This document shows, piece by piece, positions 1-13,453 of a stretch of DNA of 64,000 bases. The position numbers and the translations under genes were made by a program. The notes under the pieces were generated by a model. The model was not told the DNA's origin, searched no databases, and was given only the letters and a program-made list of their open reading frames with translations. Numbering within the stretch: the first letter of the stretch is position 1; each line of letters opens with the position of its first letter. The DNA lies in IMG/VR virus record IMGVR_UViG_3300017963_000261, positions 1 to 64,000 of that record; one strand, written 5' to 3'. This DNA comes from a virus.

Positions 1-2
1 AC

Positions 3-263
3 GTGCTCATCGTGGAGGATATCATCGACACGGGGCACACGCTGGATTACCTGATGGGCGCGCTCAGGGCCAGGGGGCCAGCCTCGTTGCGTGTCTGCTG
101 CCTGCTGGACAAACCTACACGGCGCGAGGTTCCTGTGCCGATTGACTATTTGGGGTTTTCCATTCCCGATGAATGGGTCTTTGGCTATGGTCTTGACCTG
201 GACGAGTCGTGGCGCAATTTGTCCTTGGTTGCCACGCTCAAGAAAGAGGAGAATGATGCATAG
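3..263 (+). CDS. hpt: Hypoxanthine/guanine phosphoribosyltransferase, C-terminal part (cut by window edge)
   Basis: The reading frame enters from the left edge, so only about 86 C-terminal residues are visible. They begin with the PRPP-binding loop of type I phosphoribosyltransferases (LIVEDIIDTGHTL), followed by LLDKPTRREV and then FGYGLDLDESWRNL, the arrangement of the hypoxanthine/guanine enzyme that makes IMP or GMP from free base and PRPP. The stop overlaps the start of the transporter gene, so the two are probably translated together. Its place beside a VUT-type transporter suggests purine or deazapurine salvage; the exact base used cannot be told from this fragment. Confidence 0.85.
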   Translation: MLIVEDIIDTGHTLDYLMGALRARGPASLRVCCLLDKPTRREVPVPIDYLGFSIPDEWVFGYGLDLDESWRNLSLVATLKKEENDA

Positions 264-756
264 GCGCGTGCCTTGGACGACGATTGCGTTTGTAGTGTTT
301 TATCTCGCCGTCGTGGCGGGGTCCAATGTTCTGGTGAACGCTCTTGGCCCGATAGCAACCCCCTACACGGCATTTTTTCTTATTGCCCTGGGTATGATCT
401 TGCGTCGGCTGTTACAAGATTTCTGGACAGGTAAGCAATTGGTTTTGGGCGTTGGTGGCCTGATCGTGTCTGGTTGTGTTCTATCTTGGTTGGTTGTTCC
501 TGTATCGGGCCGTGTGTCGTTGGCGTCTGCCATAGGATTCATCGTGTCGGGCATTGTGGGAAGCGTGCTGTACGCCAAGCTCAAGCGCCATCGAATGAAT
601 CTAAGTATTCTCATAGAAGCAATTGTCGATTCGTTCGTGTTTTTGGGCATTGCGTTCGGTTGGCCTTTGAACCTGCACGTAATCTATGCTCAGGTAATGG
701 CAAAGGTAGCAGGCGGCGTGATCTGGCCTATGGTGCTGATGCCAAGGGAAGGTTGA
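256..756 (+). CDS. VUT/YhhQ-like integral membrane transporter
   Basis: A hydrophobic protein of about 166 residues with five or six predicted membrane spans. The pattern SNVLVNALGP near residue 23 and a later acidic EAIVDSFVFLGIAF segment resemble the VUT (YhhQ) family, whose characterised members import queuosine precursors such as preQ0 and preQ1. I chose the second of two adjacent ATGs because GAGGAG lies just upstream; the gene overlaps the phosphoribosyltransferase stop. Family assignment is fairly good; substrate is inference. In a phage it could feed 7-deazaguanine DNA or tRNA modification, whose enzymes are not in this window. Confidence 0.7.
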   Translation: MHRRVPWTTIAFVVFYLAVVAGSNVLVNALGPIATPYTAFFLIALGMILRRLLQDFWTGKQLVLGVGGLIVSGCVLSWLVVPVSGRVSLASAIGFIVSGIVGSVLYAKLKRHRMNLSILIEAIVDSFVFLGIAFGWPLNLHVIYAQVMAKVAGGVIWPMVLMPREG

Positions 757-772
757 AAGTCGGAAAGTCAAA

Positions 773-1189
773 ATGGTAAAGGGGTACAGTCGAGAGCGGT
801 TGTTAGAGGCAATCAAAGGCAGCGGGGGCATTACGCTCACGGTGGCTCAGCGTCTCGGCTGCGATTGGGTGACGGCCAAGCGGTACATAGAGAAATGGGA
901 ATCGACTAAAGAGGCGTTTCGGTCGGAGAACGAGCAGATTCTAGATGTGGCTGAGTCTGTGCTCAGTCGCAACATTCGCTTGGCATATCGGCAACAGGAG
1001 GACACCGGACTGCCGGTAGACTCTGGCGATGCCAAGTGGTTGCTTGCCCGCAAAGGCAAAAGACGTGGATATGCTGACAAGCAGGAGATAGAATACGGCG
1101 GCACAGGCGAGGGCGGGGCGATACCCATTCGCCTATACACGGACGATTCTATAGTGATTTTACACGACGATGACGACGACCGGGACTGA
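773..1189 (+). CDS. terS: Putative terminase small subunit
   Basis: A 138-residue protein starting with a helix-turn-helix-like segment (ERLLEAIKGSGG, then TVAQRLGCDWVTAKRYIEKW) typical of small terminase subunits that bind the packaging site. The middle is helical and charged, and the C-terminus ends in an acidic DDDDDRD tail. It overlaps the large terminase start by 20 bp and directly precedes it, the canonical terS-terL order. GGAAAG sits upstream of the ATG. Function rests on the fold-like N-terminus and position, since small terminases diverge strongly. Confidence 0.7.
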   Translation: MVKGYSRERLLEAIKGSGGITLTVAQRLGCDWVTAKRYIEKWESTKEAFRSENEQILDVAESVLSRNIRLAYRQQEDTGLPVDSGDAKWLLARKGKRRGYADKQEIEYGGTGEGGAIPIRLYTDDSIVILHDDDDDRD

Positions 1190-3440
1190 GTTCAGGATAC
1201 CGCTGACAACTGAGAATCAACTGCGTGCTTTCGTGCATTATGCCTTTGGTGTGAGCATCCCAGATGTGCAGGTCTGTCCACATCACACAACACCCTGGCG
1301 GGCCTTTGCTGATGCGTACTTTGCCAAAGCCAGCGTGAGTGTCTGGAAGGCATCAAGGGGTTTTGGGGGAAAGTCCTATTTGTTGGCCCTGTTGGGCTTG
1401 ACGGAAGCCATCACGCTCAAGGCAGATGTGAACATCTTAGGCGGCAGCGGGGAACAGTCTGAGAACGTCCACACCTACATGCGCGATGAGTTCTGGACAC
1501 ACCCACATGCCCCTCGCCACCTGTTAGCCAGCGACCCAGCCAAGCGCGCCACAAAGCTGGTGTGGGGCAATACCATCAAGGCGCTGATGGCGAGTCAAAA
1601 GAGCGTGCGCGGCCCACATCCGCAGCGGCTACGCCTGGATGAAATTGATGAAATGGACCTATCTATCTTTGATGCCGCAATGGGACAGACGATGGAAGGT
1701 GACACAGGCATCCCGGCCCAAACGGTTGCCAGTAGCACGCACCACTATGCTGATGGCACGATGACTGAGGTGCTGCGTCGGGCCAATGAGAAGGGCTGGC
1801 CCACGTATGAGTGGTGCATTTCTGGAAACTGTGGTATAATGGGTATAGACCGAATAATCCCAATGCGCGAAATACGAAAGGGAGATAGAGTTTATGCCTA
1901 CAAAGACGGAAAACTCATTAAAACTACAGTCACAGATGCGTGGTGTAGTGGGAAAAGACGAACAATCATTATTCACACAAGCCGAGGCTCAGTCCATTGT
2001 ACGCCGGAACACCGAATCCTCACGAAAGACGGATGGACACAGGCAGGGCATCTCACAACAGGGGATGTGGTGTGCTCAGTGTGGAACCCACAAGGCGACG
2101 CACGGCGCCTTGTGCAAGATGTGTCACTACAACAACAGGTGTGTAGATTGTGGCAAGCTGATTGTAAGACACGCGACTCGATGCCAGTCATGTGCTGCCA
2201 AATGCAACAGCAATCTGCCAGTACCCAAGCCAACCGAGAAAACCATCTGTCCGATATGTGGAGGCCGCAAGCAGTCACGATCCAAGACTTGCCTGACGTG
2301 TTACCGGAAAACAATGTCTCAAAGGAACGTGCGAAAAGCGGGCGTGATGGCGTTAGCGCGAGAGCGTATCGCACAATCAGGCAACAGTCGCAGGCGATCC
2401 AGCAAAGGCGAGCAAGCCGCCGAAGAACTATTAACACAGCTAGGCCTACGCTTTCGCTCACAGGAACGATACGGTCGATATGTAGTGGATTTCGTTCTGG
2501 ACGATTACGATATAGCAATCGAGGTGAATGGGCGCTATTGGCACAGCAAGCCTGCCCAGCGAGACCGAGATCAGCAAAAGAAGAAATTGGTGGAGCAGGC
2601 GGGGTTAACGTTACTGATATTATGGAACGACCAGCGCCATCTGTGGACTTTACAGCTGTGCAGAGCATTGAATGTGGAGCTTTCACTCTCGTCTATGATT
2701 TGAGTGTAGAACAAGGCAATTCATTTGTAGCTAACGGCATCGTGGTACACAATTGCTTCAAGGAAACGGCGACGGGATGGCTGACACAGACAGAGATACA
2801 GCGCAAGCGCGCTGAGGTGACGACGGTCATCTGGGATGTGGAGTATGACCTGCAAGAGCCGTCGCCAGAGAGCAGGGCTATACAGCCTGATAAGGTTACG
2901 GCTACATTTGACCGTAGCCTGGGCGAATATGAAGGCAGTGTCGGGGAACGCATCATCGTTGAGGAACCACAAGAGGGCGCAAAGTATAGTACGGGCGCGG
3001 ATTGGGCCAAGGAACAAGACTTTACGGTCATCATCACGTTCCGCACCGATGTGCGTCCTATTCGCCTTGTAGCCTTTGAGCGCACACAGCGACTCCCCTG
3101 GCCGGTAATGGTAGGCAAGTACGATGCCCGTCTGGAGCGGTACGGGGCCAAGGGGGCACATGATAACACGGGCCTGGGTGATGTGATAGCCGATTTTCTA
3201 CAGCACCAGGCCACGACGACGGACGTGAACATGGTCGGTAGGGCGCGACAAGACTTGCTTTCCAACTACATCGCAGCGATAGAGGCCGACGATGTGCGTG
3301 CGCCGTTCATTCGTTTTATGGAGGCAGAGCACCGCCTAGCCAGTGTGGACCACGTTTACGGCAGCAAGCACTTGCCGGACAGCATCGCGGCGGGTGCGCT
3401 GGCCTGGATGGGCACGCGGGGCGGTGTGTTCGTAGGATGA
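1170..3440 (+). CDS. terL: Terminase large subunit interrupted by an intein
   Basis: The 756-residue precursor is the packaging motor. The N-extein ATPase has a Walker A-like loop KASRGFGGKS (about residues 60-69) and Walker B LRLDEIDEMD (about 151-160). After the intein, the nuclease domain shows GADWAKEQDFTVI and HDNTGLGDVIADFL with the expected acidic residues. An intein of 313 residues (1815-2753) sits between YEW and CFKETATG; removing it leaves about 443 residues, normal for TerL, and recreates the WC motif seen at this point in related terminases. The first extein residue after the intein is Cys, as required for splicing. A second gene is encoded out of frame inside the intein. Confidence 0.93.
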   Translation: MTTTGTEFRIPLTTENQLRAFVHYAFGVSIPDVQVCPHHTTPWRAFADAYFAKASVSVWKASRGFGGKSYLLALLGLTEAITLKADVNILGGSGEQSENVHTYMRDEFWTHPHAPRHLLASDPAKRATKLVWGNTIKALMASQKSVRGPHPQRLRLDEIDEMDLSIFDAAMGQTMEGDTGIPAQTVASSTHHYADGTMTEVLRRANEKGWPTYEWCISGNCGIMGIDRIIPMREIRKGDRVYAYKDGKLIKTTVTDAWCSGKRRTIIIHTSRGSVHCTPEHRILTKDGWTQAGHLTTGDVVCSVWNPQGDARRLVQDVSLQQQVCRLWQADCKTRDSMPVMCCQMQQQSASTQANRENHLSDMWRPQAVTIQDLPDVLPENNVSKERAKSGRDGVSARAYRTIRQQSQAIQQRRASRRRTINTARPTLSLTGTIRSICSGFRSGRLRYSNRGEWALLAQQACPARPRSAKEEIGGAGGVNVTDIMERPAPSVDFTAVQSIECGAFTLVYDLSVEQGNSFVANGIVVHNCFKETATGWLTQTEIQRKRAEVTTVIWDVEYDLQEPSPESRAIQPDKVTATFDRSLGEYEGSVGERIIVEEPQEGAKYSTGADWAKEQDFTVIITFRTDVRPIRLVAFERTQRLPWPVMVGKYDARLERYGAKGAHDNTGLGDVIADFLQHQATTTDVNMVGRARQDLLSNYIAAIEADDVRAPFIRFMEAEHRLASVDHVYGSKHLPDSIAAGALAWMGTRGGVFVG
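1831..1840 (+). promoter_or_regulatory. Extended -10 promoter inside the intein, for the nested endonuclease gene
   Basis: GTGGTATAAT contains a perfect -10 (TATAAT at 1835-1840) and the TGn extension. The -35 at 17 bp (TGGTGC) is weak. The same string precedes the genes at 9754 and 55441 and the short transcript at 38245, so it matches this genome's rightward promoter type. Transcription would start near 1847, about 47 nt before the nested gene's ATG at 1894. Confidence 0.55.
1894..2703 (+). CDS. Nested zinc-finger VSR/DUF559-like endonuclease, encoded out of frame within the intein
   Basis: A 269-residue protein in the +1 frame relative to terL, lying wholly inside the intein. The first 57 residues shadow the intein N-domain. 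From residue 58 there are paired CxxC zinc-binding units (CAQC, CKMC, CVDC, CQSC, CPIC, CLTC). The C-terminal domain has the PD-(D/E)XK/VSR-type core: KGEQAAEELL, YVVDFVLDDYDIAIEVNGRYWH and a basic helix, then LTLLILWND. AAAGGGAGAT lies 8 nt before ATG 1894 and an extended -10 lies further upstream; a second ATG at 2065 would begin at the zinc region. It is homologous to the minus-strand gene at 10629-11741. Likely the homing nuclease that mobilises the intein; that role is inference. Confidence 0.8.
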   Translation: MPTKTENSLKLQSQMRGVVGKDEQSLFTQAEAQSIVRRNTESSRKTDGHRQGISQQGMWCAQCGTHKATHGALCKMCHYNNRCVDCGKLIVRHATRCQSCAAKCNSNLPVPKPTEKTICPICGGRKQSRSKTCLTCYRKTMSQRNVRKAGVMALARERIAQSGNSRRRSSKGEQAAEELLTQLGLRFRSQERYGRYVVDFVLDDYDIAIEVNGRYWHSKPAQRDRDQQKKKLVEQAGLTLLILWNDQRHLWTLQLCRALNVELSLSSMI

Positions 3441-3604
3441 AAACATTGCAGCTTATTGCCTCCTGGCCACCCTATGCCCTGGGCTGGGTGGCAGGGACAT
3501 TGGTTCGATTCGTTCTCTGGGTGGCGCTGATGATCAAGACCGGCTACCTGGAGGGCATCGGAGATACGCCGTGGCAGTCACGACAACAAAGCTCTCGATT
3601 CTAG
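3437..3604 (+). CDS. Small single-span membrane protein between terL and portal
   Basis: A 55-residue protein starting at an ATG that overlaps the terL stop (ATGA) and ending inside the portal gene, overlapping it by 34 bp in another frame. It begins MKTLQLIASWPPYALGWVAG and continues into a hydrophobic stretch to about residue 34 (VRFVLWVALMI), followed by a polar tail. The tight overlaps on both sides argue for a real, translationally coupled gene. I do not recognise a family. Confidence 0.6.
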   Translation: MKTLQLIASWPPYALGWVAGTLVRFVLWVALMIKTGYLEGIGDTPWQSRQQSSRF

Positions 3605-5055
3605 ACAAAGCCGCCATCGTGCGGGGCGGGCGGTCGCGCTGGCCATCGCTGGGGCCGAGTGGGCGCTGGCCGTTGCCGGAAACCAAGGCGATGCCCATTA
3701 TCTGGCCCGATTGGCGCGACAGGAAACCGCAGTGGCACGTCATCAACCTGGATGCCTACATCAATGAGGGATTCAACCTTAACAGTCTGATCTATAGCGC
3801 CATCATGTTCAAGGTACGCGCTATGATGCGCGTCTTGCTTAAGGCTTACACGGGTGACGCCGACCACCCTGAGCCATTGGACGCGGCGCATCCACTCACA
3901 AAGCTGCTGGCTCGGCCCAATCCCCACCAATCCTATCTTGAGCTGCAAGGTCAGACCATTGTCTATTTCAACCTCGACGGCAATGCCTACATTACCTATG
4001 ACCGACCGGCGCGGGCGGCGCTACCAGAAGCCTTCTACTCTATCCGGCCAGATCACATCTACATCATCCCCGACCGCAAACAGGCCAAGACAGGCTTACT
4101 TGGCTACGTCTATGTACCAGAGGGCAAGAATGCCTGGGGGAGATGGGATGAAACCCGTCGCCGTGAGGCGCTACGTAACAACGAGGTGCTGCTGTTTGCG
4201 CCCGAAGACCTAATGCACGTCAAGCTACCTAACCCTGGCGACCCGTTGCAGGGACTCGGTTATGGGCTGTCTCCCCTGTCAGCGGCGGCTCATTCGGCAG
4301 ACGTGGACAACAAAGTAACGGAATTCCTCAAGCTCTTTTTTGACCACGGCGCGATGCCGATGGGACTGCTCAAATTCGACGTTCCAATGACCGATGATAC
4401 GGTAGCCCGTGCCCGCGACCGCTGGCAGGAGATATATGGGGGATATGTCAATTGGTCGGACGTGGCCGTGCTGGACCAGGGGGGCAGTTATCAGCGCATC
4501 ACGCCCACGTTTGAGGAGATGGGATTTGAGAGCATCGATGCGCGCAACGCGTCTCGGATTCTAGGTCCCTTCGGTGTGCCAGGCATGCTCATCAGCGAGC
4601 GCCATTCTCTGGACCGCTCCACTTACTCCAACTGGGAACAGGCCAACAAAGCCGTTTGGGAAAACACGCTGGTGCCCGAAGCCACGTTCTTTGAGGTAGA
4701 GTGGAAATACTACTTGCGCACCGACGATGCGTTCGTGGCCTACGATTTCGGTGCCGTGCCCGCTCTGCGAGAGGACCTGAACAAGAAGGTAGACGCTTGG
4801 AGTGCGATGGTGGATCGAGGCGTGCCCAAGGACGTGGCAGCCGGGGTTGCAGACTTGCCCTTGCCCCAACTGCCCGATGATGGTGTGGGCTATCTGCCGT
4901 TGAACTTGGTGCCGACGGGGATGGTTGCCCCCACGCCCGCCACCACCGAACAGGGCGCGGCCAGCGCCACGGAGGAGGAGCGTGGAGAGGGCAAGGCGCT
5001 CACCTGGGAGGACCTAAAAAAAAACAGGCTCAACGGCCCGCGGGTCGGGGGCTGA
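3571..5055 (+). CDS. HK97-type portal protein
   Basis: A 494-residue portal, the dodecameric ring at the capsid vertex through which DNA enters and leaves. Family features include NLDAYINEGFNLNSLIYSAI near the start, HPLTKLLARPNP about residue 109, LDGNAYI, the KLPNPGDPLQGLGYGLSPL stretch, and the FGVPGMLI segment near residue 335. GTG start with GGAG upstream. The last codons contain a run of nine adenines (5016-5024), giving the slippery heptamer A AAA AAC; a -1 slip there joins this protein to the head-morphogenesis protein that follows. Confidence 0.92.
   Translation: MAVTTTKLSILDKAAIVRGGRSRWPSLGPSGRWPLPETKAMPIIWPDWRDRKPQWHVINLDAYINEGFNLNSLIYSAIMFKVRAMMRVLLKAYTGDADHPEPLDAAHPLTKLLARPNPHQSYLELQGQTIVYFNLDGNAYITYDRPARAALPEAFYSIRPDHIYIIPDRKQAKTGLLGYVYVPEGKNAWGRWDETRRREALRNNEVLLFAPEDLMHVKLPNPGDPLQGLGYGLSPLSAAAHSADVDNKVTEFLKLFFDHGAMPMGLLKFDVPMTDDTVARARDRWQEIYGGYVNWSDVAVLDQGGSYQRITPTFEEMGFESIDARNASRILGPFGVPGMLISERHSLDRSTYSNWEQANKAVWENTLVPEATFFEVEWKYYLRTDDAFVAYDFGAVPALREDLNKKVDAWSAMVDRGVPKDVAAGVADLPLPQLPDDGVGYLPLNLVPTGMVAPTPATTEQGAASATEEERGEGKALTWEDLKKNRLNGPRVGG
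5019..5025 (+). promoter_or_regulatory. Candidate -1 frameshift site joining portal to the head-morphogenesis protein
   Basis: In the portal frame the codons read CTA AAA AAA AAC AGG, so the heptamer A AAA AAC is correctly phased. After a -1 slip the next codons give QAQRPAGRGLSEEAKDRL and run directly into the downstream protein, with no stop. The predicted fusion is about 1,099 residues. The identical heptamer is used by the tail chaperone pair at 43371-43377. Transcriptional slippage on the A9 run, or a homopolymer sequencing error, would look the same. Confidence 0.5.
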
Positions 5056-5096
5056 GTGAAGAGGCTAAAGACCGGCTAGGGGTTCGCATTGACCGT

Positions 5097-6869
5097 GTGG
5101 CAGCGGCCTGGGAGCCACGCATTGCACAAGTGGCCGCAGGGCAGTTTGAGAAGGACCTAGAGGCGCTCCTTAACATCCTAACAGAGACAGAACGAATCAA
5201 AGCGGACATCGACTGGCAGACCATCAACACGGAATGGAAACGCTACCTGGAGGCTGCCGGGGATGACTGGCGTAGCGCGTTCATTCCCGTGCTGCAAGGG
5301 CTGATGGTGGACCAGGGTGAACGGCTGAACGTCGAGTTCGGAATGGAATTCGATGTACGCAACTTGTACACAGAGGAATTTCTCATCGACTACCTGATGC
5401 CCTTTGCGGAGAGTGTGCGAGATACGACAGGCGATGGATTGAATGAACTCTTGACCCAGGCGATGCAGGAGGGATGGTCTATCCCCAGGACGCAACGGGG
5501 CTTGCGGTTGATGTTTGACCAGTGGATAGGCGGAGACGCACGCGACATTTGCCAGCGTGAGAATCTGACGCCAGAACAGCAATGGTTTTGCCAGAGGCGC
5601 ACACCATATCGGACGGAGTTGATTGCGCGAACGGAGAGCATCAGAAGTTCATCTCGCGGATCTGTCGCCCTCTATGAAGCCTGGAATATCGAGGGGAAGC
5701 AATGGTGGGCACAAATTGACGAAAGAACTTGCGTTTTTTGCGCCGAGATGCACGAGAAAATCATCGGTGTCTCAGAGGCGTTCTTCCCCCAAGGTGGACG
5801 GATGAACGTTCAGGTAGGTGACAGAACAGCAACGCTCAAGTTTGACTATGAAGAGGTGACATCAAGTCCACTTCATCCAGGGTGCAGATGTACAATTTTG
5901 CCTTGGAGTCAGCGGTGGGAGCAGTTGATGCCAGAAGAGCCGGTGCCAGTTAGTGAGCGACCGCGGTTTGAGACATCGGCAGAGGCATTAGATTGGTTGC
6001 ACAAAAAGGGCGTGAAAGTTGCTTATGAGTCTATCGATGCTATCATTGAAGCCCGCTGGGCCAATTATCGGGATAGCGCCTCATTCGCACGGGCCATTGA
6101 ACAGGAGCTTGAGAAATTGCGTGCAGAGGTGCGTCGTAGCATTCCACGCGATTTGATCATTGGGTGGCGCACACAGGGACTTACTACTGAGCAAATACGT
6201 TTGCAGATTGACCAATGGGCCATACAGCAGTTGGCAGAGCGTAGGCCGCAAGTTGTACGCGATGAGGAAAGACTATTTAGGCAGAACTGGATACACAGAT
6301 TTGCAGATAAAGATGTAGTAATAACCGATGATGACGAACTGAAGGCTATTAGTAACGGTCTGCTAGTAGCCTATCAAGCTGGTCGTGTAGGTGCAGGTGC
6401 TACATATATTATCAGAAATCCAATTGATGGGCGAGAGCAGTGGATGTCTGGGCAGCACTTACATGGCCTGATAGAAGTTTACAATCAAGAATATGTAGGC
6501 CTTGGGATCATTGATGATATGGGCCAGACAATCAGCACGAGCGCAGTTTATAGGAAGCGAAGTATACAGGAATATACTCCCAATGTGCCATTGAGTTACG
6601 ATAACTATTATGATGGTGTCTTTACTCATGAATACGGACATTTTATGGCCGAGGCTGATGATACAATAGAAGACCGCGCAGCCCAAGCAATCAAGGAGCT
6701 AGGCAAAGATATTGTGACTGAGGCCATTAGTGAATATGCTTGGCACAATGAGACAGAAGCCGCAGCGGAGGCGTATGCGCTTTATAGACATCCAGATTTC
6801 GCGGAGCTGCCCGACAGAAGCCAAAGGGTTGTGCGATTCATTTTGTTTGGAGAGGGGCACATAGATTGA
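5097..6869 (+). CDS. SPP1 gp7/Mu F-like head morphogenesis protein with C-terminal zincin-like domain
   Basis: The N-terminal half (about residues 1-275) is a minor head protein of the Mu F/SPP1 gp7 type: [16 protein letters not shown], then [13 protein letters not shown] and the closing [11 protein letters not shown]. The C-terminal half is separate and visibly more AT-rich, and carries THEYGHFM, an HExxH metal site at residues 511-515, followed by a possible third ligand in [10 protein letters not shown] near 551. This suggests a metallopeptidase-like effector injected with the DNA. GTG 5097 has no good ribosome site; the same frame is open back to the A9 run, with CTG 5052 as another option, so it may be made mainly as a portal fusion. 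Confidence 0.85.
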
Positions 6870-9735: not shown

Positions 9736-9747
9736 AAGTGGTATAAT
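9719..9747 (+). promoter_or_regulatory. Consensus sigma-70 promoter with extended -10, giving a leaderless transcript
   Basis: TTGACG (9719-9724), 17 bp, TATAAT (9742-9747) preceded by TGG. The ATG at 9754 lies 7 bp after the -10 box, where transcription should start, so the transcript appears to be leaderless. The 14-base GAAAGTGGTATAAT is identical at 38225-38238. Confidence 0.85.
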
Positions 9748-10456: not shown

Positions 10457-10651
10457 ATGGACAGGCAAACGAAACCGAACAACCTACAACTGGTCGAGGT
10501 GCGCTGCGCTCAGTGCCTACAGCCAACGGACACCATCTGTATGGTGCGCCGGGACGGCAAGCTGGTAGCGCTATGCCCCAAGTGCGCGGTACAAGGCGGG
10601 CGGCGCTCCACTGTGGGGCCGACAGAGTTTAAGGGCGCGGGCGTGGCGTGA
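10457..10651 (+). CDS. Small zinc-ribbon protein
   Basis: Sixty-four residues with CAQCLQPTDTICMVRRDGK followed by LCPKCAVQGG, a four-cysteine ribbon. GGGAT lies just upstream of the ATG, itself about 11 nt after a terminator T run, so expression may depend on read-through. Its 3' end overlaps in antisense the end of the minus-strand endonuclease gene. Specific function unknown. Confidence 0.5.
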   Translation: MDRQTKPNNLQLVEVRCAQCLQPTDTICMVRRDGKLVALCPKCAVQGGRRSTVGPTEFKGAGVA

Positions 10652-11741
10652 GATGTTCGACTATCGCATCCACGCAGACCACAGGAGAGGAGCGAATTTC
10701 GTCACCAGTGAATCGAAGGACTATCCAGCCCTTGCGCTCAAGGTCAGCGTTCTTGCGTTGGTCACGCTCTTGTACTTCTGGGCTACTGTGCCAATAGGCA
10801 CCATCGGCCTCGACGGCGAGCTTGTGGTCGGGAAAAGCGATGTCGATATGCCAGCGCTCAACTTTATATTCGGTTCTGAACAGGACGCCCCTGGCTTCAA
10901 GTTCTTGCTGGAGCAGTATTTCTATGGACGTTGGTCCATTGTACCGGGCGAAGCAGTTGCGAGAGCAGAATCGCGCAATCCCTTCTCTGCATGGATAGAT
11001 GGAAAAGACTTTACCGCATATCTCACAAGTGGCAGTAGCGCCACTAGTCTTGGCCTGCCAATGGCATTCTTGGGAACAGTATTTGGCATTTTGGGCGCGG
11101 AAGTGATGAACAACAAACGCATCGCCACAGTGTTCGCATATCTTGGTAACGCTGGCGCGCGCTTGGTCATGGCACTCGGTCGAACAATAGCGCCGGTTAC
11201 TACTGGGATGGACCTGAAAAGATTGGCCGCAATGTGGGCACGTTCTGGCTGTACGGTGGTAGTGGGGATGGCTCTCGCCCCTCATGCCTATATGTTGACA
11301 TTCTGCCGAGCAGTAAGTTTTATTGATTCGTGCGGCGCGGTCAGAAAATGTGTTTCCACACACAGGGCAGGTTTTAGAGATAAGCGGAATGTCATTCATA
11401 CAATCTTTCGAGCAATATATCCCACGCCCCTTGGTCACGCGATTTTGGTCGATGGTGAAAAGCTTGCCGCACCGCTGGCATTTACGGGTAACAGGGCCAC
11501 CAGTCCAATGCCCGGCATTTGGGCCTACGCGATATTCATGAGAGCATTTGCGCGAACAAAAGTCACCAGCGTTGTAAATCAGTTCACTTGGACGAACTTC
11601 GAAAGATTTGCCGCAATTCTTGCAGGTGCGCGGAATGCGTTTCTTGCGCGATTCGTAGTGGCAGGCGCGAGAACAGAACTTTTGGGCATTGCCCTTGGAG
11701 TAAAAAGACTTGCCGCAGTGTTGGCAGACTTTTTGAGGCAC
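10629..11741 (-). CDS. Free-standing seven-zinc-knuckle VSR/DUF559-like endonuclease
   Basis: A protein of about 370 residues from GTG 11741, preceded by GGGAGGA at 7 nt. It has seven tandem units of the form CxxCGxxF...(Y/F)CSxxC (starting CQHCGKSF, CKNCGKSF, CQRCGKLF, CPVCGNTF, CPHCGQSF, CEHCGDAF, CEICGKVF), each likely binding one zinc. The last 110 residues are the nuclease: TSIEILLQQELEARG, WHIDIAFPDHKLAVEADGAYWHSS (split over the core) and GWIVLRFTGDEI. The core matches the nested intein nuclease (EVNGRYWH versus EADGAYWH). Minus strand, own promoter and structured leader: a homing-type mobile gene. The zinc array probably reads DNA; that is inference. Confidence 0.88.
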   Translation of the reverse strand: MPQKVCQHCGKSFYSKGNAQKFCSRACHYESRKKRIPRTCKNCGKSFEVRPSELIYNAGDFCSRKCSHEYRVGPNAGHWTGGPVTRKCQRCGKLFTIDQNRVTKGRGIYCSKDCMNDIPLISKTCPVCGNTFSDRAARINKTYCSAECQHIGMRGESHPHYHRTARTCPHCGQSFQVHPSSNRRYCSTECHDQARASVTKICEHCGDAFVVHHFRAQNAKYCSQECHWQAKTSGATATCEICGKVFSIYPCREGIARFCSRNCFARYNGPTSIEILLQQELEARGVLFRTEYKVERWHIDIAFPDHKLAVEADGAYWHSSPEVQERDQRKNADLERKGWIVLRFTGDEIRSSPVVCVDAIVEHLTPRPRP

Positions 11742-11838
11742 AACAAAATCCTCCCGGCTCAGGATAGCTGGCAGATATTTGATGGTGGGGGCGGCTCGGT
11801 GCCAGTGACCGAGTGTTCGGGTCGCGTTCCCTAGCCCC
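11742..11838 (-). ncRNA. Structured 5' leader RNA, copy 2
   Basis: The leader begins near 11838, the predicted transcription start, with GGGGCTAG. Pairing seen: GGGGC (11834-11838) with GCCCC (11788-11792); hairpin CTCGGT/ACCGAG (11808-11813 and 11795-11800) with loop CACTGGC; that loop with TGCCAG (11768-11773), a pseudoknot; and ATCCT/AGGAT across 11748-11765, which covers the Shine-Dalgarno. The copy at 7560-7668 has the same order and the same loop and anti-loop, while the hairpin stem differs yet still pairs. That supports a conserved RNA fold controlling translation. Confidence 0.6.
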
Positions 11839-11844
11839 ACTAAT

Positions 11845-11873
11845 AGTATAACACAAAAGTCGGATTTTTGCAA
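11845..11873 (-). promoter_or_regulatory. Sigma-70 promoter for the seven-knuckle endonuclease gene
   Basis: On the minus strand TTGCAA (11873-11868), 17 bp, TATACT (11850-11845). The start is expected near 11838, exactly at the GGGGCTAG that opens the structured leader. Confidence 0.8.
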
Positions 11874-11902
11874 GGCTGGATGTCCAGCAAAGGCAGATTC
11901 CA

Positions 11903-13453
11903 ATGGAACACAAAACGTTTCCCAGCATAGGGACCAAGGTCATCGACGCTGACCAAGGTATCGTAGAAGGGGTGATAACTTTATTCGGCGTGTTGGATAG
12001 AGGAAATGACATATCGTTCCCCAATTCGTTCCGCAAAACTCTGTCTGAGCGTGGTAGTAAAGTGAAGGTGCTGGACTCACACAAAACGGACAGTGTAATG
12101 CGCGTCTTAGGCAAGCCCCTGGAGATTCGGGAGATGTCGCGGGCTGAATTGCCTCACGCTATTGTAGACCAATATCCAGAGGTTACGGGCGGCGTTTATG
12201 CTAAGACTCAATTTTTGATGGATACGCCGGAAGGCCGGGGCGCATTTGCACGCATCAAATCAGGCGCGCTTCAAGAGTGGTCATATGGATATGATGCGCT
12301 GGATGTAGAACACGCCACTGTCAAGAATGGAGAGGGCCAAGATGTGCGGGCTAGACTCCTGAAAACGGTCAGGCTCTGGGAGTACTCGCCTGTGCTCTGG
12401 GGACTTGTTCCTGGCACGACTGTGGTGTCTGCCAAGGGCGACAACGGCGACCCCGACAAGGCAGTCGGCGGCGCGGATGCTCTGACGCCTCCTGGCACTG
12501 TCTGGCACTGTACCTGTCCCAAATGTGGACACGAGTGGAACAGCGATACCAAATGCGCAGAGTCTACTTGCCCTGAGTGTGGGCACGAATTGGGCGGGCG
12601 CTCAGCAGGCACGGGTACAGAGGGCAGACAGATCATCGGGGGCACCGGCGTATCGCTGGCCTCTGACGCTGGACCGGAGGAGGAGAAACCCTGGCGGGCC
12701 ATCCGTGAGGGTGACAAGTGGCGGGTATATCAGGTGGACGAGGACGGCAACCCGACCGGCGAACCACTGGGCGAACACGACACCCAGGCTGAGGCGGCTG
12801 CACAGGTAAGGGCGCTATATGCCAATGAGCCAGAGGCGGGCAAAGTGACTTGGACGGCACGCTACGTGAATGATTTGCCAGACGGGAGTTTTCTCTACGT
12901 CGAGAGCGGCGGAGACAAAGACGACGAGGGCAAGACGACTCCCCGTAGTCTTCGCCACTTTCCCTACAAGGACGCTGATGGCTCTATCGACCTGCCCCAC
13001 CTACGTAATGCCATCGCACGCATCCCACAGAGTAATGCGCCGGGGCTGACCGATGCCAAGAAAACGCAACTACAGGAGCGCGCCCGCCGAATGTTGGAGG
13101 ACGCACAGAAAGCAGATGCCAAGATTGGCCGCGTGCTGGCTGCCCGTAACGCCACGCGCATCGCCAACGCCCTGGCCCGTCTCATCGAAGTGCTAGAGGA
13201 CGCGGGCGTGGACATTCCGGGCTACGGAGAGACAGAAGAAGAGGAAAAGAGCGACCAACCGGCGACCGATGCCGGAGACGATACCGCACCTGCTGAGGCC
13301 GCGACAGACGATGCCGCACCCGAGCAGGCCGCAACTGATGAGGAGGAAACAGACGAGCAGGCCGGGCCGCCCGACGGGACACCCACCTCCGAGGAACTGC
13401 TGAAACTCATCGGCGTGGAACAAGACGAAATCGCTATACTATTGGAGGTGTAA
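11903..13453 (+). CDS. HK97-family prohead protease with long C-terminal extension
   Basis: A 516-residue protein. Residues 1-165 are the herpesvirus/HK97-type serine protease that trims the capsid: the catalytic His is in VLDSHKTDSVMRVLGKP (about H60) and the Ser in LQEWSYGYDA (about S127). The extension contains a zinc ribbon (CTCPKCGHEW, CPECGHELGG, about residues 202-232), a lysine/tryptophan-rich domain, a segment RHFPYKDADGSIDLPHLRNA seen in other phage protease extensions, and an Asp/Glu/Ala-rich tail. Such tails could act as scaffold. It directly precedes the capsid gene, separated by 3 bp. Confidence 0.9.
   Translation: MEHKTFPSIGTKVIDADQGIVEGVITLFGVLDRGNDISFPNSFRKTLSERGSKVKVLDSHKTDSVMRVLGKPLEIREMSRAELPHAIVDQYPEVTGGVYAKTQFLMDTPEGRGAFARIKSGALQEWSYGYDALDVEHATVKNGEGQDVRARLLKTVRLWEYSPVLWGLVPGTTVVSAKGDNGDPDKAVGGADALTPPGTVWHCTCPKCGHEWNSDTKCAESTCPECGHELGGRSAGTGTEGRQIIGGTGVSLASDAGPEEEKPWRAIREGDKWRVYQVDEDGNPTGEPLGEHDTQAEAAAQVRALYANEPEAGKVTWTARYVNDLPDGSFLYVESGGDKDDEGKTTPRSLRHFPYKDADGSIDLPHLRNAIARIPQSNAPGLTDAKKTQLQERARRMLEDAQKADAKIGRVLAARNATRIANALARLIEVLEDAGVDIPGYGETEEEEKSDQPATDAGDDTAPAEAATDDAAPEQAATDEEETDEQAGPPDGTPTSEELLKLIGVEQDEIAILLEV

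Follow-up and report, generated by a model that had tools for sequence, protein, structure and literature searches.

The window, by which we mean the whole stretch of 64,000 nucleotides of viral DNA analysed here, contains one unbroken frame on the plus strand that runs from an ATG at 1170 to a stop at 3440 and encodes a TerL-like protein of 756 residues (Table 1). The protein is 39–48% identical to 16 relatives that lack an intein. The Pfam profile Intein_splicing matches its residues 231–528 and thereby spans the entire insert (E about 1e-13 to 1e-14), TIGR01443, the model for the intein C-terminus, also matches the insert (E=7e-10), and the best match of the splicing part among solved structures is the Mtu RecA mini-intein (PI-MtuI). 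The motifs of a class 1 intein are present, i.e., Cys1 (CISGNC...), block B (TPEHR), block F (YDLSV) and block G (VVHN|C), and removal of the intein restores the host TerL exactly, as judged against the intein-less relatives. When the spliced protein was aligned with them, 16 of 16 read W|C at the joint, followed by (R/K)(E/D) two residues on; the joint of the window, EW|CFKET, corresponds to W|CYRET and similar sequences. Because of this W|C reading the intein was placed at 1815–2753, with Cys1 at 1815 and Cys+1 at 2754, in accordance with the coordinates given in an earlier note on this DNA. A start with Cys1 at 1830 was discarded on the same alignment; one alignment and the intein structure model had been built with this start, which leaves the conclusions unaffected.

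Table 1. Features of the TerL locus in the window (positions of the window, all on the plus strand).
Feature	Positions	Strand	Remarks
TerL N-extein	1170–1814	+	Open frame; intein-less relatives
Intein, 313 aa	1815–2753	+	Ends VVHN; next residue Cys+1 at 2754
Intein N-terminal splicing part	1815–2064	+	Cys1 block, KGD, TPEHR block B
Promoter-like extended -10	1831–1842	+	GTGGTATAATGG; core TGGTATAAT at 1832–1840
Ribosome-site-like sequence	1877–1884	+	AAAGGGAG, 9 nt before ATG 1894
Predicted homing-endonuclease gene, +1 frame, 269 aa	1894–2703	+	
Intein-frame linker	2065–2640	+	Nuclease read out of frame; open, no domain match, predicted disordered
Zinc-ribbon region of nuclease	2071–2301	+	12 Cys invariant in 16 relatives
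EDxHD/Vsr-like catalytic domain	2389–2634	+	
Intein C-terminal splicing part	2641–2753	+	Blocks F and G, VYDLSVEQGNSFVANGIVVHN
TerL C-extein	2754–3440	+	Starts CFKETATGWL; alignment to intein-less relatives
Portal protein downstream (context)	3571–5055	+	PF04860, 3e-47

A published insertion of similar appearance, the ShiLan domain, carries an out-of-frame HNH endonuclease in an open insertion that leaves the host gene free of added stops, and has neither a detectable splicing domain nor a detectable ribosome site (PMC11855218). This precedent raises the possibility that the insertion in TerL is likewise a non-splicing element, or a self-splicing intron, rather than a splicing intein. However, the host TerL frame contains a splicing domain (Intein_splicing), every splicing motif is present, the joint matches the intein-less relatives exactly, and a search of positions 1–6000 yielded no Rfam match up to E=1, group I and group II introns included, which makes such an insertion very unlikely. 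The profile matches and motifs thus confirm the open frame with intact splicing blocks read earlier from the letters alone, and the insert in TerL as an intact intein that is predicted to splice.

Within the intein, the +1 frame encodes a second protein. Its profile matches comprise DUF559 (2e-9), Vsr (9e-8) and TIGR00632 (4e-10) and mark a Vsr/DUF559/MTES_1575 domain. A profile search gave I-Bth0305I (3r3p, E=2.6e-18), an EDxHD homing endonuclease matched by its catalytic domain, as the closest solved protein, in agreement with a Foldseek search using the predicted nuclease model (TM 0.71 to 3r3p). Among the PHROGs, the nearest families carry HNH or homing-endonuclease annotations. The protein carries paired CxxC motifs (zinc ribbons), and E173, D199, E210, G213, Y215, W216 and H217 are invariant across its 16 relatives; the catalytic fold and the invariant E...D...ExxGxYWH residues place it among the EDxHD (Vsr-like) nucleases. 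Judged by these features it is an EDxHD/Vsr-like homing endonuclease with predicted cutting activity, and the zinc knuckles and VSR/DUF559-like nuclease that the earlier note had seen at 1894–2703 are recovered in the CxxC ribbons and the DUF559, Vsr and TIGR00632 matches. The first 57 codons have no recognised homology, and the true start may therefore be the ATG at 2065; this alternative start is without a well-spaced ribosome site. A second zinc-ribbon Vsr-like nuclease, apparently free-standing, lies at 10629–11903 on the minus strand of the window and adjoins a likely prohead protease gene. The window’s free nuclease (P0003) was not counted as nested: although a long ORF, probably due to chance, runs antisense to it, the stretch tested contains three stops and intein motifs are absent. 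A Vsr-like nuclease of Bacillus phage Goe9, also free-standing (L030, 2108–2977), which shares 34% identity over 82 residues with the window nuclease, directly precedes the terminase large subunit gene.

To determine how readily the intein frame could be free of stops where it overlaps the nuclease, positions 2065–2640 were rewritten 20,000 times with phage codon usage while the nuclease was retained, and the stops in the intein frame were counted. The recoded versions had 10.3 such stops on average and none of the 20,000 was open, whereas the observed frame is, although some 10–12 stops would be expected in it; permutation of the nuclease’s own synonymous codons left it open in 2 of 20,000 cases. 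The third frame has 13 stops over the same stretch. Chance openness of the intein frame across the nuclease is excluded. The intein frame over 2065–2640 has no family match and is predicted to be disordered (pLDDT about 25); the AlphaFold model of the full intein (mean pLDDT 40) was too poor for a fold search and served only for the disordered linker. From the recoding statistics, the lack of a family match and the predicted disorder it follows that the intein frame is kept open and yet is without a detectable domain over the nuclease.

Dozens of other phages carry a nuclease in a second frame of an intein, on the same or the opposite strand. Viral contigs were scanned with the nuclease family and checked for other-frame ORFs spanning the nuclease. 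Five further loci have the same-strand arrangement, in phase +1, and all of them are MuF-like head proteins: L116 (=L036/L115), L118, L130, L132 and L133 (=L128). In the same-strand cases 4.9 to 42 stops were expected and none was observed (P at most 0.006), and the intein frame is free of stops in every same-strand homologue found. About twelve zinc-ribbon cases are antisense and codon-aligned, i.e., L117, L120 (=L040/L041, L119, L121, L122), L123, the first intein of L125, L131, L134, L135, L136, L137, L138, L139, in which the host protein is protease-like, and L144/L190, in which it is HNH-like. For the intein and the nuclease of the window, the only close relative found was an identical copy, and a genome scan found only six relatives, one of them clearly nested.

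Several of these loci show further arrangements. In Gordonibacillus (L190, 3018–4805, minus strand), the intein with its antisense nuclease interrupts an HNH-like protein itself. Two inteins occur in one MuF protein in L125 (1101–4640, minus strand), the first paired with an antisense zinc-ribbon nuclease and the second with an in-frame Vsr-like one, and also in L138 (2472–5471, minus strand), where the first again has an antisense zinc-ribbon nuclease and the second resembles the FHGD (HTH-nuclease) type. In L126 and L129 a free-standing nuclease lies beside an intein-less MuF gene. An open DNA methylase insertion between DPPYEL and GFMGK contains an antisense Vsr-like zinc nuclease in L158 (2238–4631) and L166 (2442–4472); no intein motifs were seen in this insertion, which resembles ShiLan but has an EDxHD-type nuclease on the opposite strand.

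A second architecture was found in cultured phages. Gordonia phages Malisha and Fosterous, Escherichia phage Snoke, Edwardsiella phage MSW-3 and Aaphi23 each have an unannotated ORF antisense to a head-protein intein, with HTH domains and a Vsr/MTES_1575/DUF559-like domain (E from 3e-4 to 0.14), and the intein of UPWr_S5 also has an antisense HTH-type nuclease. Annotated head proteins of cultured phages hide an unannotated antisense gene for an HTH-plus-nuclease protein in L026 (2087–3946), L029 (1787–4189) and L028 (2360–4147). The intein-frame sequence FHGD, which is conserved in several HTH-type inteins, is the complement of VAVE in the nuclease. A scan of viral contigs for this second type gave a codon-aligned antisense frame spanning the nuclease in 78 of 78 loci with the motif, a rate that is biased by seeding the scan with antisense members; 44 of the 78 passed a strict intein-motif filter, and intein-like ends were also present in most of the twelve failures inspected.

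As the window is of metagenomic origin, faulty assembly or sequencing might account for the frame relation. A further contig record matches the window without a difference over 7,700 bases, which argues against a local assembly error even though this record may derive from the same sample, and the layout is also seen in other, independent contigs and, on the opposite strand, in the genomes of cultured phages; an error is thus extremely unlikely.

The N-terminal splicing part of the intein (1815–2064) also contains a promoter-like site, a ribosome site and the first 57 codons of the nuclease. The extended -10 core TGGTATAAT at 1832–1840 and the ribosome-like site AAAGGGAG at 1877–1884, which had been noticed ahead of the nuclease earlier, are both present, and the latter encodes part of R-K-G-D in the intein frame. 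The 12-mer GTGGTATAATGG, with A or G at position 11, has four exact copies in the window (1831, 9738, 38229 and 55407, all on the plus strand), and allowing up to one mismatch five were found where 0.35 were expected. The copies at 9738, 38229 and 55407 are intergenic or located where a gene begins, and they have a -35 resembling TTGAC or CTGAC at a spacing of 17 nt and GTGG before TATAAT; the copy within the intein has a poor -35 but does have the TG extension. All six same-strand loci have a start codon preceded by a purine-rich site. In the five others a TTG start of the nuclease follows AAGGAG, GGAGG or GGAG, the exact start being least sure in L132 and L133, and in four of these five the ribosome-like site is encoded by the intein’s own KGD or GED motif.

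That all six same-strand cases share the +1 phase, and that the candidate start is TTG and not ATG in the five MuF cases, could suggest that the nuclease is produced as an N-intein/nuclease fusion by programmed +1 frameshifting instead of internal initiation. However, the start codon and upstream ribosome-like site are present at every same-strand locus, the window has an internal promoter-like site, and the antisense members cannot arise in this way. The shared phase may also be inherited, as one origin of the same-strand layout was not rejected (AU p 0.29; for one origin of the antisense layout, p 0.067). We therefore consider frameshifting improbable and favor internal initiation.

To further determine which frame is under selection, substitutions were counted by intein codon position in homologous systems. 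Between L132 and L133, where intein position 1 equals nuclease position 3, the counts for positions 1, 2 and 3 were {4,4,20} in the N-terminal splicing part, {66,30,28} over the nuclease and {2,2,8} in the C-terminal splicing part. Selection tests were used for the antisense members because their openness is not significant in GC-rich phages (P 0.06–0.39). In these members sense position 1 equals nuclease position 3, and the core gave {60,9,26} for Snoke/AH01 and {48,7,25} for Fosterous/Angelicage, with the exteins peaking at position 3; the pair KpTDp1/RCIP0015 was dropped from this test as it had too few core differences. In the relatives, the frame under selection changes at the edges of the overlap: inside it the substitutions fit the nuclease frame, outside it that of the intein. 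Purifying selection acts on the nuclease frame in the relatives tested and the same-strand homologues have no stop in the intein frame, so that neither of the two outcomes named in the earlier note as contradicting the overlap was seen. Together with the open-frame statistics, this frame switch supports the proposal that two proteins share about 0.8 kb in different frames. Inteins lose their endonucleases after fixation in the homing-cycle model, and the nuclease frame might accordingly be a decaying relic, once an in-frame or split endonuclease, that was displaced by indels while the intein frame stayed open by luck. Such a relic is unlikely, as all catalytic and zinc residues of the nuclease are intact, the nuclease frame is under purifying selection where the +1 layout occurs again, and an accidental open frame of 192 codons has a P below about 1e-4.

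Sequence identities within pairs of relatives bear on mobility. The inteins of Snoke and UPWr_S5 are 95.6% identical with exteins at 72% and 81%, those of KpTDp1 and RCIP0015 are 98.8% identical compared to 86.8% on the N side, and those of L132 and L133 are 85.6% identical with exteins at 69% and 77%. Inteins far more alike than their exteins are expected after homing; local recombination of another kind might produce the pattern as well. For the window intein, mobility is suggested by the intein-less TerL relatives only.

In the nuclease tree the layouts were grouped more than by chance, with few firm branches, and the window nuclease forms a long, weakly placed branch. Split inteins in fractured genes reportedly occur with Vsr-like endonucleases. 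They share with the window a nuclease of the same superfamily beside the intein halves, and L127, L002 and L052 look like such cases; in contrast, the TerL frame of the window is continuous from 1170 to 3440 and its intein contiguous. In L127 (2475–5290), N-extein, N-intein and nuclease form one ORF and the next ORF, comprising C-intein and C-extein, starts at an ATGA overlap, which indicates a split intein whose N-half is joined to the nuclease. As this split layout occurs in the same nuclease family, the overlap may, as previously suggested, be a transitional state towards or away from split inteins; the tree is silent on the direction.

The window element shows every feature of an intein and of an EDxHD homing endonuclease that could be checked computationally. 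Like inteins with an in-frame endonuclease (LAGLIDADG or HNH), it and its relatives have the splicing blocks and an endonuclease between blocks B and F, but here the endonuclease is out of frame or antisense and would be a separate protein, and the linker is without recognisable function. I-Bth0305I (3r3p), the free-standing phage nucleases Hef and F-LimVII share the catalytic fold and invariant residues of the window nuclease; they reside in introns or between genes, whereas the window nuclease overlaps the frame of a splicing protein. ShiLan is the closest published element, likewise with a homing-type endonuclease in another frame of a stop-free insertion, and differs from the window in that the latter has an intact intein predicted to splice and an EDxHD/Vsr-like nuclease with its own ribosome site. 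An intein with an out-of-frame nuclease was not found in the literature searched, so that the earlier statement that no such layout is described holds within it, with ShiLan as a published relative that lacks a splicing domain (PMC11855218). The same paper cites a preprint, ‘Actinobacteriophage inteins ... non-canonical architecture’ (Gosselin et al., bioRxiv 2025.01.02.630785), which may cover part of the phenomenon; the present set is mostly outside the named actinophages and includes same-strand cases.

The locus is thus very probably a mobile intein with its homing-endonuclease gene in the customary position, flanked by splicing blocks B and F, but read in a different frame. The TerL mRNA would be read straight through, the intein frame crossing the nuclease as a stop-free linker that may have no function of its own, and the splicing domain would fold from its two ends and excise itself at W|C, restoring TerL. 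The nuclease would be translated separately from the internal ATG 1894 with its own ribosome site and probably also be transcribed from an internal phage-type promoter, and is expected to cut intein-less TerL alleles, upon which intein and nuclease would be copied in together. Within the overlap, selection on the intein frame would mainly avoid stops and that on the nuclease frame would be ordinary protein conservation. We infer splicing, expression, cutting and the target site from the sequence.

Beyond this locus, it is probable that phage inteins include an entire class, for the most part unannotated, in which the endonuclease is encoded either in the +1 frame of the same strand or, in codon register, on the opposite strand and has at least two DNA-binding architectures (zinc ribbons and HTH). 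In this class the intein-frame codons over the nuclease would be kept only stop-free, and codons of the splicing domain would double as promoter and ribosome site. If this is true, these inteins represent natural dual coding on a large scale, with the product of one frame being an expendable spacer, and another way to build a mobile intein, in which splicing domain and endonuclease are translated separately from the same DNA. This would explain unannotated nucleases hidden in well-studied phages, e.g., under the head protein of Escherichia phage Snoke. The inteins would also offer a source of splicing domains that tolerate long arbitrary linkers and a natural system to measure the birth and upkeep of overlapping genes, and the relatives, which represent all layouts (in frame, split, +1, antisense and free-standing), would allow the origin of split inteins to be tested.
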